Below are positions 31,260 through 35,426 of a stretch of DNA of 64,000 nt, piece by piece. The notes under the pieces are model-generated. The model was not told where the DNA came from. It saw nothing but the letters and a program-made list of their open reading frames with translations, and ran no database searches. Each line of letters opens with the position of its first letter. Within the stretch, counting starts at the first letter, position 1. The translations under genes were made by a program, and so were the position numbers. Source of the DNA: Halodesulfurarchaeum formicicum (GTDB taxonomy: Archaea > Halobacteriota > Halobacteria > Halobacteriales > Halobacteriaceae). The stretch spans positions 1,302,001 through 1,366,000 of the forward strand of contig NZ_CP016804.1 in NCBI RefSeq assembly GCF_001886955.1, in the 5' to 3' direction.

Positions 31260-32798
31260 ATGGCAGGTTCGTCTGGTGGTAGCGAAACGTCTGTATCGGA
31301 TGAGCTCAAGGAAGCGGAGGAGGCAATGGAAGGACCGCGGATCGAATTCTACGGGGGTCGCTGGGCAAGTACGATCCCCTTACTCCTGTTCATTCTCTGG
31401 GCCATCTTCCAGAGTGGTGTCCTCGGTATCGGGGACACGAACGGGCTGGTAATCGGGGCCCTGGTCGCGACGATCATCGGGATGTTCTTCGCGAAGGGCG
31501 ACTGGAAAACATACGCAAATACGATTTTCGAAGGGATGACACAGCGAGTGGCCGCGACGGCGATCGTGGCCTGGCTGTGGGCCGGCATGTTCGCCGAAAC
31601 GCTGCAGGTTGGTGGCTTCGTCGACGGCCTGATTTATGCCGCAGACGCGCTCAACGTCGGGGCCGCGACGTTCCCCGCCGCAGCGTTCATCCTCGCAGGA
31701 TTGCTCGCAACCGGAATCGGTACCGGGTACGGGACGACTGTCGCGTTCGTCACGCTGTTCTTCCCGGCCGGGGTCCTGCTCGGCGCGAGTCCAGTCCTCC
31801 TGTTCGCGGCAATCCTTTCGGGAGCCGTGTTCGGGGACAACCTCGCCCCGGTGAGTGACACCACGATTGTGAGTGCCGTGACCCAGGACTCGGACATTGG
31901 GGGCGTCGTCGCCTCCCGGTTCAAGTACGCGATCGCCGCCGCGGTACCGGCGTTCATCGCGTTCCTGGTCATGGGTTCGATCATGCCCGGTGCCGACCTT
32001 CAGGGCCAGGCCGCCCTGGAGGGAACTGCACCTGGGCTCTTGCACCTCGTCTCCATGGGGATCGTCATCGTGACGGCCATCCGTGGTCGCCACATTGTCG
32101 AGGCGATCTCCTGGGGTATCATCGCCGCGATCGCGTTCAACTTGATCTTCGGGCTCTCGACGGTGAGCGACATCGTCGCCTTCACCGTCACCGAACCCGG
32201 AGCCTTCACGGCCCTGCCGTTCGTGGTCGTGGGTGACGCAGCCGGCGTGGGTGGCAGTCTGTACGCCGGTGCGCTCGGCTTCTTCCCGCTGATCGTGCTG
32301 ACCCTGCTGATCGTTTCGATGGCTCGCATCATGATCCAGGGCGGTGGCTTCCAGGCGATGCAGGACATCCTGCTCAACAGCGTCGCGACGACGGTGCGAC
32401 GTGCCGAGCTGACGATGGTTCTGGGGACGGCCGCGATCAACGGCATGATCACGATCAACACGGCCGCGGAGATCGCAATCGCGCCGTACATCGCACGAAT
32501 CGGCGAGAAGTTCAACATCAACGGCTACCGCCGGGCGAACATCCTGGACGCGAACACCTCCGCGCTCGGGTACATCTTCCCGTGGGCCGGTGGTGTCCTG
32601 GTCGGATACCAGGTCATGGTCGGTCCGGACGGGCTCGGTGCCCAGTACGGAGACGCCATGATCGTCAACCCGATCGAAGTGGTACCGTACGTGTTCCACG
32701 GCTGGTTCCTGTTGTTCGTCTTCATCATCGCGGCGATCACCGGGTTCGGGCGTGAATACATTGCCGACCGGCGCTCCGAGGAGGTGGCTCGCGTATGA
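31260..32798 (+). CDS. nhaC: NhaC-family Na+/H+ antiporter
   Basis: 512 residues with 11-12 predicted membrane helices. GTGYGTTVAFVTLFFPAG, GAVFGDNLAPVSDTTIVSA (about 195-213; acidic/polar transport site) and LDANTSALGYIFPWAGGVLVGYQ near 425-447 are NhaC-superfamily signatures. It would export Na+ in exchange for protons, central to salt homeostasis. The N-terminal 30 residues are acidic and cytosolic. Coupled by a 4-nt overlap to a small OB-like protein. Confidence 0.92.
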   Translation: MAGSSGGSETSVSDELKEAEEAMEGPRIEFYGGRWASTIPLLLFILWAIFQSGVLGIGDTNGLVIGALVATIIGMFFAKGDWKTYANTIFEGMTQRVAATAIVAWLWAGMFAETLQVGGFVDGLIYAADALNVGAATFPAAAFILAGLLATGIGTGYGTTVAFVTLFFPAGVLLGASPVLLFAAILSGAVFGDNLAPVSDTTIVSAVTQDSDIGGVVASRFKYAIAAAVPAFIAFLVMGSIMPGADLQGQAALEGTAPGLLHLVSMGIVIVTAIRGRHIVEAISWGIIAAIAFNLIFGLSTVSDIVAFTVTEPGAFTALPFVVVGDAAGVGGSLYAGALGFFPLIVLTLLIVSMARIMIQGGGFQAMQDILLNSVATTVRRAELTMVLGTAAINGMITINTAAEIAIAPYIARIGEKFNINGYRRANILDANTSALGYIFPWAGGVLVGYQVMVGPDGLGAQYGDAMIVNPIEVVPYVFHGWFLLFVFIIAAITGFGREYIADRRSEEVARV

Positions 32799-33061
32799 GC
32801 GTCCTCGAGAAGTGGCTGGCCGGCTGGACGTTCCGGACCGCAAAACCCGACTACGAGCCGGGTGAGAAGATCGAGGTGATGGTCACATCGATGCAGAACG
32901 GCAAAGCAAAGGCCCGAATCGGTGACTCGGTCCTCCGGATCAAGGAGGTGCCTGAGGACGGGCTGAACACGAGAGTGATGGTCAAGGTCGACGAGTGGGA
33001 CACCGAGGACCACATCGGCGAAGGGACCTACCTCGAGACGGTCGGCGAGAGCGCTTTCTAG
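32795..33061 (+). CDS. Small OB/TRAM-like protein coupled to nhaC (DUF7513-type)
   Basis: 88 residues. After 15 residues (MSVLEKWLAGWTF) the sequence YEPGEKIEVMVTSMQNGKAKARIGDSVLRI and VMVKVDEWD predicts a five-strand beta barrel resembling TRAM/OB domains. It overlaps nhaC by 4 nt. Whether it regulates the antiporter, binds RNA, or is merely cotranscribed is unknown. The DUF number is from memory. Confidence 0.75.
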   Translation: MSVLEKWLAGWTFRTAKPDYEPGEKIEVMVTSMQNGKAKARIGDSVLRIKEVPEDGLNTRVMVKVDEWDTEDHIGEGTYLETVGESAF

Positions 33062-33071
33062 GCCGTTCGGG

Positions 33072-33080
33072 TTTCTTTTT
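33072..33080 (+). terminator. T-rich terminator after nhaC operon
   Basis: TTTCTTTTT, 11-19 nt after the stop of the small OB-like gene, in one of the few convergent gaps with room for a terminator (18 nt). Confidence 0.45.
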
Positions 33081-33394
33081 CAGGTGCGGTCGACAGTCGC
33101 CTCGACGCGAACGGACTCCGGATAGTCCCACTCGAGGACCTGCCGACCGACCTCCTCCCGACCGCGAAGCTCGAAGCGACGCTGATAGACCGTGTACTGC
33201 CAGTCGTCGTATCGGGCCGTCGAATCGCCGTCGAGTTGCTTGTAAAGCGGCACGCGATATTCCGTCGGGGCGTCCGAGTGGGGGCCTTTGAGCTCGGTTC
33301 CCTTCCGGCGGACGGTCCGTTTGATCGTCTCGACGACGGAATCGAGTGTCTCCCGATCGCCGCTCTTCAGCGTGAGGTGGAGGACGGTGGTCAT
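33080..33394 (-). CDS. uS10-like (ribosomal protein S10 family) paralogue
   Basis: 104 residues. MTTVLHLTLKSGDRETLDSVVETIKRTVRRKGTELKGPH follows the uS10 fold (beta strand, helix with a basic run, GP loop). KQLDGDSTARYDDWQYTVYQRRFELRG replaces the usual His-Lys loop and the C-terminus differs from canonical RpsJ. It matches what is annotated in haloarchaea as a uS10/mL48-family protein, additional to the true S10. Ribosome association is unproven. Divergent from the Nudix gene. TATA-like GGCTTTTCCC at about 33418-33427. Confidence 0.8.
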   Translation of the reverse strand: MTTVLHLTLKSGDRETLDSVVETIKRTVRRKGTELKGPHSDAPTEYRVPLYKQLDGDSTARYDDWQYTVYQRRFELRGREEVGRQVLEWDYPESVRVEATVDRT

Positions 33395-33475
33395 GAGCCA
33401 AGGGAGGACGAGCGACGGGAAAAGCCTGTAGTATGCGAGTCGAGTCTGTCGTGGAGTCACACACTCCGACATTCT

Positions 33476-33484: not shown

Positions 33485-33505
33485 CCACCGTGTACCGCTC
33501 TAGTA

Positions 33506-33931
33506 ATGACGGTTGAAGCGACAAGCGCCGGGGCCATTCTCTATCGGGACACGCGGGGCCGGCGTGAATACCTCCTACTGAAGAGCCGCCCCGGGGACTG
33601 GGAATTCCCCAAAGGCGGCGTCGAGGGGGACGAAGAACTCCAGCAGACGGCGATCAGAGAGGTACAGGAGGAAGCCGGAATCAGCGATTTCAGGCTGCTC
33701 GATGGCTTCCGCGAGGAATACGATTATGTCTTCGAGGCGAACGGGGACCGGATCCACAAGACCGTACACCTGTTCGTCGCGAAGTCCTACGAGGCCAGTG
33801 CCGAACTGTCCCACGAACACCGGGACCACCAGTGGCGTGATTACCAGCAAGCACTGAACACGATTACCCAGGACGGCCCGCGGGACATCCTGCGGGACGC
33901 CCACGAGCACATCGACGAACTGGACGTGTGA
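33506..33931 (+). CDS. Nudix hydrolase (Ap4A-hydrolase-like)
   Basis: 141 residues, one Nudix domain. The Nudix box, GX5EX7REUXEEXGU, is complete at about residues 37-59 (GGVEGDEELQQ ... REVQEEAGI). The start MTVEATSAGAILYR and FPKGGVE, plus the C-terminal FVAKSYEA, resemble archaeal bis(5'-nucleosyl)-tetraphosphatases. Starts at ATG 33506; a frame from 33236 is a shadow of the uS10-like gene. Coupled to the next gene by GTGA overlap, so the two proteins are made together. Confidence 0.9.
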   Translation: MTVEATSAGAILYRDTRGRREYLLLKSRPGDWEFPKGGVEGDEELQQTAIREVQEEAGISDFRLLDGFREEYDYVFEANGDRIHKTVHLFVAKSYEASAELSHEHRDHQWRDYQQALNTITQDGPRDILRDAHEHIDELDV

Positions 33932-35001
33932 GCTTCCCACCCGGGGACAGCGAGTTCGCCTTCGAACTGGCGAGTTGTGCCTGGGCCGAACAGGAGTGGC
34001 CACCAACGGGTGAGCCGACACCGGCCATCGTCGCCCGCCAACTGGGCTGGCAGCAGCGTCGCTGGGATACCATCGTGATCGAGGTCGATCCCGGGGCCTT
34101 CGAGACCCGCGCCGCGTTCGGCCCCGAGCGGCTCAACAGCGACCTTCGGCACGTCCTCCAGCACGCCCCGGAATCCTGGACCTATTACCGCGAGGCCCTT
34201 CCACACCCGGGCTATCCCTGGCGGTACGTCAGGGAGTCGATCCACGAGGCGACGGCCCGTGACGCCCTCGAATCCCGCAAGCGCGGGGGCCAAATCGAGA
34301 TCCGCCGGGTCGAGAAGTACCCCGACTGGGTCGACCGAATCATCGCGATCGAGAACAAACCCGACCTGGATGCAAGCGCCGCCCGGCGACTCACGGACCA
34401 GCTAGAACGAGATGTCGCCGCCGGGATCGCCGACGAGGTCTGGCTCGCGACGACCGGCACCGATTCGCGAGTGGAACCAGCGCTCTTAGAACGGATCCCC
34501 TCCGAGGTCGGAATTCTCACGCTGGGGCCCGAGGGAGTTGACGTGCGCTGGCGACCGCGCACCCTCGACACGGAGCAAGCTGGTATCGACATCCTCGACC
34601 GATCCGAAGGCGGATCACACGATCAGTCAGCAGCCCAGTTCGAGGTGCTGTCACGGGCCGCAAAATCGGAGAAACGATACGACATCGCCGAGCGGGCCTA
34701 CGAGCGGGGGTGGCGTCACTACGTCGAGTCGATGCGGCCGGACTGTGCACACTTCGATTTGACCGTTGGTCGGTACGGCTACAGACCGACGTGTACAGCC
34801 TTCGATCGGACCCAGACCCCACGGGAGTGTCGGGGTAGCTGTCCACACTTCCAGCCCGAACCGCCCCAGCACCGACAGGGTGGCTGGCCCATTGAGGGCG
34901 GACCCGGGCAGACGGTCAAGCGAATCTTGCGAGAACGGAGCGCGAGGCGTCACTCCGTCTCCAGCACTGTCACGTCCGATCGGGGCACCGCCAGCCGGTA
35001 G
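33928..35001 (+). CDS. DUF5787-type protein with PD-(D/E)XK-like motif and Cys cluster
   Basis: 357 residues, GTG start overlapping the Nudix stop by 4 nt. Residues 131-146 read YPDWVDRIIAIENKPD: a literal PD followed eight residues later by E142-x-K144, as in PD-(D/E)XK nucleases. Cysteines occur only at C17 near the start and C273, C289, C301 and C305 near the end, a spacing reminiscent of the Cys-ligated Fe-S nucleases (AddB/Cas4 type). The family is annotated as unknown function; the nuclease idea is my inference. The last 17 codons run antisense through the 3' end of the next gene. Confidence 0.8.
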   Translation: MSFPPGDSEFAFELASCAWAEQEWPPTGEPTPAIVARQLGWQQRRWDTIVIEVDPGAFETRAAFGPERLNSDLRHVLQHAPESWTYYREALPHPGYPWRYVRESIHEATARDALESRKRGGQIEIRRVEKYPDWVDRIIAIENKPDLDASAARRLTDQLERDVAAGIADEVWLATTGTDSRVEPALLERIPSEVGILTLGPEGVDVRWRPRTLDTEQAGIDILDRSEGGSHDQSAAQFEVLSRAAKSEKRYDIAERAYERGWRHYVESMRPDCAHFDLTVGRYGYRPTCTAFDRTQTPRECRGSCPHFQPEPPQHRQGGWPIEGGPGQTVKRILRERSARRHSVSSTVTSDRGTASR

Positions 35002-35426
35002 GTCGGAACGGTTCGGTCGATCCGTTCCAGGACGTCTTTTTGGGTGAGTGTCCGGAGCGCGGCACGGACCTCCTCGACCGCGGCGTTTGGCTCCCCCTGA
35101 TCGCGCACCTCGTGGAGGATCGCGACGACACTCGCCGAGCGCTCCTCGGGGCCCGGAACCGCCTCGAAGACCGCCGCTTCGATTCCAGCAAAGGCGACGG
35201 CCGGCCCATCACCTGTCTCGCCGGAAAGCACCGCCTCACCCTCCGGCGTGACCCGGATCAAGCTGTTATCGTCTCGATAGTAGTAGGGTTTGAGTTCGGA
35301 TTCGAGGTACTGGTGGACCTCGCTGCCGCTGTCCATATCCCAGGCCGCCTGGAGCTCGCTGTTCTTCGTGGGTTCACGTTCCAGAATATCCGCGAGCCGC
35401 GACCGGGCCGTCTCGGAGAGGGGCAT
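34950..35426 (-). CDS. DUF5797-type winged-helix protein (haloarchaeal)
   Basis: 158 residues. The N-terminal 75 residues form a winged helix (ARSRLADILEREPTKNSELQAAWDM; SEVHQYLESELKPYYYRDDNSLIRVTPEGEAVL). The C-terminal 80 are a helical domain of unknown role (SVVAILHEVRDQG; AALRTLTQKDVLERID). A probable DNA-binding regulator; no target is evident. Its 3' end overlaps the converging DUF5787 gene by 52 nt, the longest coding overlap in the window. Confidence 0.82.
   Translation of the reverse strand: MPLSETARSRLADILEREPTKNSELQAAWDMDSGSEVHQYLESELKPYYYRDDNSLIRVTPEGEAVLSGETGDGPAVAFAGIEAAVFEAVPGPEERSASVVAILHEVRDQGEPNAAVEEVRAALRTLTQKDVLERIDRTVPTYRLAVPRSDVTVLETE

Follow-up and report, generated by a model that had tools for sequence, protein, structure and literature searches.

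What does the 357-residue protein do that is encoded, from a GTG start codon, at positions 33928..35001 (+) of a 64,000-nucleotide stretch of the genome of Halodesulfurarchaeum formicicum (assembly GCF_001886955.1, contig NZ_CP016804.1, positions 1,302,001 to 1,366,000; hereafter the window)? An earlier note, made from the DNA letters, had described the open reading frame (ORF) as a DUF5787-type gene and had proposed that its product is a PD-(D/E)XK nuclease with an iron–sulphur (Fe-S) staple, coupled to a Nudix enzyme. The family assignment was confirmed by a match to DUF5787 (PF19100) with 376.5 bits over residues 34-310, the Pfam gathering cut-off being 25 bits. Since the PF19100 model begins at residue 34, the N-terminal helix containing C17 falls outside it. 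The window protein had no Pfam match besides DUF5787 and no match in NCBIfam, PHROG or PADLOC, and a PDB sequence search with DUF5787 gave no credible match. Haloarchaea possess core signature proteins of unassigned function, and DUF5787 could not be matched to an entry in a 2012 survey of such proteins (PMC3287961). The analysis described below makes it probable that the DUF5787 proteins are metal-dependent DNA nucleases of the PD-(D/E)XK type and form a family specific to Halobacteria, one paralog of which would be docked on PCNA while the other, to which the window gene belongs, would be clamp-free.

Distribution and duplication of DUF5787, a core family of Halobacteria

PF19100 was present in 289 of 292 genomes of the class Halobacteria, normally in two copies each, and Haloferax volcanii has the family. 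The three genomes of the class without it (G020, G217, and G285), one of family f5 and two of family f11, may have split off before the DUF5787 family arose. In a phylum-wide draw, the matches listed above the cut-off were all from members of the class; a below-cut-off match outside the class (G481, 21 bits) sits in an apparent methionyl-tRNA synthetase gene and was rejected as spurious. A single-sequence scan of the genome contigs found nothing, and an alignment-based rescan yielded 497 confirmed loci. The 80 GTDB loci kept for the neighbour analysis were all haloarchaeal wherever the record was named to that level. No DUF5787 was detected in the viral and phage collections, and among plasmids it turned up in a single record, an 828 kb replicon. 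The near-universal occurrence in two copies, together with this near absence from viral, phage, and plasmid sequences, indicates that DUF5787 belongs to the chromosomal core genes rather than to mobile elements or defence systems.

In a maximum-likelihood tree, 61 proteins fell into two clades with 100/100 support, designated paralog 1 (41 rows), which includes the window gene, and paralog 2 (20 rows). Members of many families were found inside each of the two clades, which fits a single duplication: an ancestral DUF5787 gene would have given rise to both copies in one event that predates the divergence of the sampled haloarchaeal families. The paralog 2 gene of the same genome is located at 1936303-1937100 (-) of the contig (G000:C1; locus L032:1393-2376 (-)), where it adjoins the aIF2-gamma/Rpo7/Spt4 cluster. 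In many genomes paralog 2 is divergent beside a cluster of aIF2-gamma, PIN, Rpo7, Spt4, and S24e genes and convergent to genes for a PhnP-like metallo-beta-lactamase protein and an AAA ATPase, as judged from gene names inferred from sequence.

A predicted nuclease core with a winged-helix insertion

AlphaFold2 was run on a 70-sequence alignment, and secondary structure was assigned by DSSP. The model of the window protein had a predicted local distance difference test score (pLDDT) of 86.9 and a predicted template modelling score (pTM) of 0.86, and that of paralog 2 had a pLDDT of 93.7 and a pTM of 0.91. Both models predicted the same order of elements, alpha-beta-beta-[winged helix-turn-helix]-beta-alpha-beta, which supports a PD-(D/E)XK core interrupted between strands 2 and 3 by a winged helix-turn-helix (wHTH). 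In the model of the window protein, alpha-1 (residues 9-23; 33952..33996 (+)), which carries C17, is followed by beta-1 and beta-2 (residues 33-41 and 44-53; 34024..34086 (+)). The wHTH insert, delimited by DSSP and Foldseek at approximately residues 55-127 (34090..34308 (+)), comprises predicted helices at 55-110 and strands at 114-127. The core then resumes with beta-3 (residues 135-143; 34330..34359 (+)), which bears E142-N143-K144 at its end, and closes with alpha-2 (149-165) and beta-4 (170-176), which together occupy 34372..34455 (+). Thus, the alpha-beta-beta-beta-alpha-beta arrangement on which the nuclease proposal of the earlier note depended appears in the predicted models of both paralogs, with the insert added. 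The high-probability Foldseek matches in the PDB were ArsR/SmtB-type winged helices, which aligned over 76-79 columns corresponding to the insert.

Conservation was counted over 189 sequences, 148 of paralog 1 and 41 of paralog 2. Residues invariant in all of them (189/189) were E9 and E13 in alpha-1, R37, Q38, R44, and D47 (codon 34066-34068) in beta-1 and beta-2, R61, Y131, W134, E142, and N143, Q158 and D162 in alpha-2, and, towards the C-terminus, R250, E255, R263, C273, C289, C301, and C305. E21 in alpha-1 and K144 were each retained in 188/189. The nuclease core had previously been read as a PD..ExK motif consisting of D133, E142, and K144. The assignment of E142 and K144 withstood the conservation count, but D133 was kept in only 116/148 paralog 1 and 32/41 paralog 2 proteins, where E, A, N, G, or R substituted for it. 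Being variable in both clades, D133 was ruled out as the catalytic Asp; D47, on strand 2, is invariant instead. Typical PD-(D/E)XK enzymes have a metal-site Asp, the (D/E)xK motif, and an additional residue on the following helix. From the invariance of these residues and the variability of D133, the metal site most likely consists of D47 and E142 with K144, together with Q158 on the next helix. D47, E142, and K144 match the PD-(D/E)XK signature of a D on beta-2 and (D/E)xK on beta-3.

In the mechanism that we propose, one or more divalent metals would be held by D47 and E142, and a water molecule would be activated by K144 with the help of Q158. The inserted winged helix would position double-stranded DNA, and the C-terminal module of four Cys residues (Cys4), which probably binds Zn, may stabilise the protein or add a DNA contact.

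MmcB-like proteins (PF06319) are PD-(D/E)XK proteins. In a Foldseek comparison with viral models, three MmcB-type DNA-repair proteins were found at ranks 3, 5, and 7, two of them with a probability of 0.99 and a target template modelling (TM) score of ~0.5. The MmcB-like matches to the DUF5787 model had probabilities of 0.85-0.99, yet E values of 0.01-0.07. The rank-3 match is from the Acidovorax phage ACP17, and an MmcB-like ACP17 protein, which has a sub-threshold match to PF06319, was found by a motif scan. It reads D-L-L..IEVK..IP..SGV, and by eye it appears to share with DUF5787 the order Asp, ExK, I/LP..xG, with hhalign giving no significant match. MmcB-like proteins are thus the best structural neighbours in the viral library, but they have neither the insert between beta-2 and beta-3 nor the Cys4 module, they are about half as long, and the sequence link is below significance. 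The resolvase Hjc (PF01870) also has a PD-(D/E)XK core like that predicted for DUF5787, but it is a small single domain that showed no sequence similarity to DUF5787 in the hhalign comparison, and the same genomes encode it as a gene of its own. Hjc was found in the present genome, which also has an 891-aa open frame with a Cas4-like domain, possibly Dna2-like.

A putative clamp-docking motif in one paralog

A PCNA-interacting protein (PIP) box (QxxhxxA, where h is aliphatic and A aromatic) was detected at the C-terminus in 41/41 paralog 2 proteins and in 0/148 paralog 1 proteins, the latter usually ending in a basic tail. Published work describes the PIP consensus and how it serves to bind PCNA (PMC4929162, PMC7776575). 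The paralog 2 tails read QSGLDRF, QASLDRFS, QTGLDRY, QSGLDRWR, and similar, and the paralog 2 protein of the present genome has RRQSFLDRF. Fen1 of the same genomes ends alike: tails of the form QTGLDQFT, QTGLDRWT, or similar were found in 7/8 genomes examined, and in the eighth the script did not recover Fen1. Of 3590 other ORF ends in the fetched loci, 0.2% had a PIP-like motif within the last 12 residues. No other observation speaks as strongly as the PIP box of paralog 2 for an action of the family on DNA, at the site of replication or close to it. We propose that paralog 2 is recruited to PCNA by this motif and consequently acts in replication-coupled repair, whereas paralog 1, which has no PIP box, would work clamp-free.

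Among known nucleases, NucS/EndoMS (PF01939) resembles paralog 2 in that it combines a nuclease domain with a terminal PIP box. NucS/EndoMS, however, has an OB/Sm-like N-terminal domain, and DUF5787 has the winged-helix insert and the Cys4 module instead; no match of DUF5787 to Pfam NucS (NucS_C) was found. NucS is absent from the present genome and from 6 others of 29 tested, DUF5787 being in all but three exceptions, and the DUF5787 family is not tied to NucS. We raise only tentatively, as a possibility that we would not yet favour, that the two DUF5787 proteins form a haloarchaea-specific DNA-repair nuclease duo, one member on the sliding clamp and the other free of it, which runs a core repair step done by other enzymes in other archaea (for example, cleavage of mismatches, crosslinks, or recombination intermediates) and which persists in genomes that have lost NucS. 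Haloarchaea, which withstand strong radiation and drying, serve as the principal genetic models of DNA repair in archaea. The two predicted nucleases that almost every haloarchaeon carries, one of them with a Fen1-like PIP box, are candidate replication-coupled repair factors, and a near-universal two-copy family with a putative clamp-docking paralog is of greater interest than the features to which the earlier note had drawn attention.

Weighing of the alternative explanations

Several results weigh against the assignment of DUF5787 as a DNA nuclease family. The Foldseek search against the PDB gave no match to a solved structure at E <= 0.001; the nucleases matched in it, PaqCI, Card1, and BbvCI, were weak, with probabilities of 0.41 or less, and the top PDB match of paralog 2 was AF2093, the meaning of which is unclear. 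Profile comparison of DUF5787 by hhalign with NucS, Cas4, Hjc, and MmcB-like families yielded nothing, a result that is uninformative since the known PD-(D/E)XK families also failed to find each other. A search of the literature on DUF5787 found no biochemical or genetic data and no paper naming the family. Finally, the gene neighbourhoods of DUF5787 are mixed and name no pathway.

The first alternative to be considered is a true Fe-S-stapled nuclease of the RecB type, as in Cas4, AddB, and Dna2, in which C17 and three C-terminal Cys residues would bind a 4Fe-4S cluster. Several features speak for it: a PD-(D/E)XK core is predicted here, the window protein has C17, C273, C289, C301, and C305 as its only cysteines, as had been noted earlier, C17 lies in alpha-1 and is conserved in 148/148 paralog 1 proteins, and several C-terminal Cys residues are invariant. 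In the Cas4/AddB staple, one N-terminal Cys is combined with a CX2CX5C motif (1+3). The C-terminal module of DUF5787, C273-X15-C289-X11-C301-X3-C305 (34744..34842 (+)), has not three but four Cys residues, all conserved in 189/189, with a different spacing. Moreover, C17 is replaced by Ala or Ser in 4/41 paralog 2 proteins, that of the present genome among them, and all four C-terminal Cys residues are retained in these proteins. No Pfam Cas4/PDDEXK_1 match was found even at an E value of 5 over 70 family members, and hhalign gave 0.2-0.3% for Cas4 (PF01930) in a comparison where known PD-(D/E)XK families miss each other. The 1+4 pattern (CX15CX11CX3C) and the dispensable N-terminal Cys make a self-contained four-Cys site, probably for Zn, likelier than a staple of the Cas4/AddB kind. 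The Fe-S-stapled reading, which the earlier note had suggested by analogy with AddB and Cas4, thus appears unlikely, with some probability left to Fe-S binding in paralog 1.

It is similarly improbable that DUF5787 is an RNA-processing nuclease that acts in gene expression together with a Nudix (RNA/Ap4A) enzyme. This idea draws on the neighbouring genes, which are those for aIF2-gamma, Rpo7, Spt4, and S24e in the case of paralog 2 and those for TFS and an S10-like protein in the case of paralog 1. However, paralog 2 lies outside the aIF2-gamma cluster, in divergent orientation to it, the overlap with the Nudix gene is rare, and the PIP box of paralog 2 speaks for a link with the DNA sliding clamp.

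A nuclease fold that has lost catalysis, with the winged helix and the Cys4 module enabling the protein to serve as a DNA-binding or regulatory factor, would account for the fact that the wHTH insert is the part best matching solved structures and for the lack of a known activity. We consider this quite unlikely, because the predicted catalytic residues are among the most conserved of the family in both old clades. Restriction and CRISPR systems often contain PD-(D/E)XK folds, but a restriction-like defence nuclease is very improbable for a near-universal, two-copy, chromosomal family whose two clades each span the class and which gave no PADLOC match, was missing from the viral and phage collections, and occurred in a single plasmid record. 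A DNA nuclease family with one PCNA-docked member remains the reading that we prefer.

The Nudix gene and other neighbours

The gene upstream of DUF5787 encodes an Ap4A-hydrolase-like Nudix hydrolase (33500..33931 (+), with a likely ATG start at 33506). Its stop codon overlaps the GTG start of DUF5787 in the tetranucleotide GTGA at 33928-33931, and the overlap is present in this genome and a sister species. The translational coupling reported earlier is thus real at this locus, but it is not conserved. Among the 63 named GTDB loci with a Nudix gene nearby, the two genes overlapped in 2, were within 100 nt in 9, and were separated by >1 kb in 19, and coupling as a general class-wide feature was rejected. 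The Nudix gene is nevertheless a usual same-strand neighbour of paralog 1 (34/41 and 63/80 loci), and its product is 79-91% identical across non-congeneric haloarchaeal loci. The Nudix gene is also missing from the three DUF5787-less genomes, for which common ancestry of both traits is as good an explanation as a functional tie, and in genome G002 it lies elsewhere, away from DUF5787. A functional pair of the two proteins, as the earlier note had imagined, is accordingly a weak proposition, and the second DUF5787 paralog is a better-supported partner than the Nudix protein. The closest solved relatives of the latter are Ap4A hydrolases, so that the nucleotide-cleaning role formerly assigned to it is not the likeliest.

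At its 3' end, DUF5787 is overlapped tail to tail by a convergent DUF5797 gene (34950..35426 (-)). DUF5797 is a conserved convergent neighbour, present in 69/80 loci, and probably does not belong to the system. A protein with a ribosomal S10-like domain is encoded opposite the Nudix gene at 33080-33472 (-) and is conserved in 59/80 loci. A DUF7513 protein is encoded at 32795-33061 (+), where its gene overlaps the end of an NhaC-type antiporter gene, and it has a match to a Dis3-like cold-shock (OB) domain exactly at the curated cut-off.
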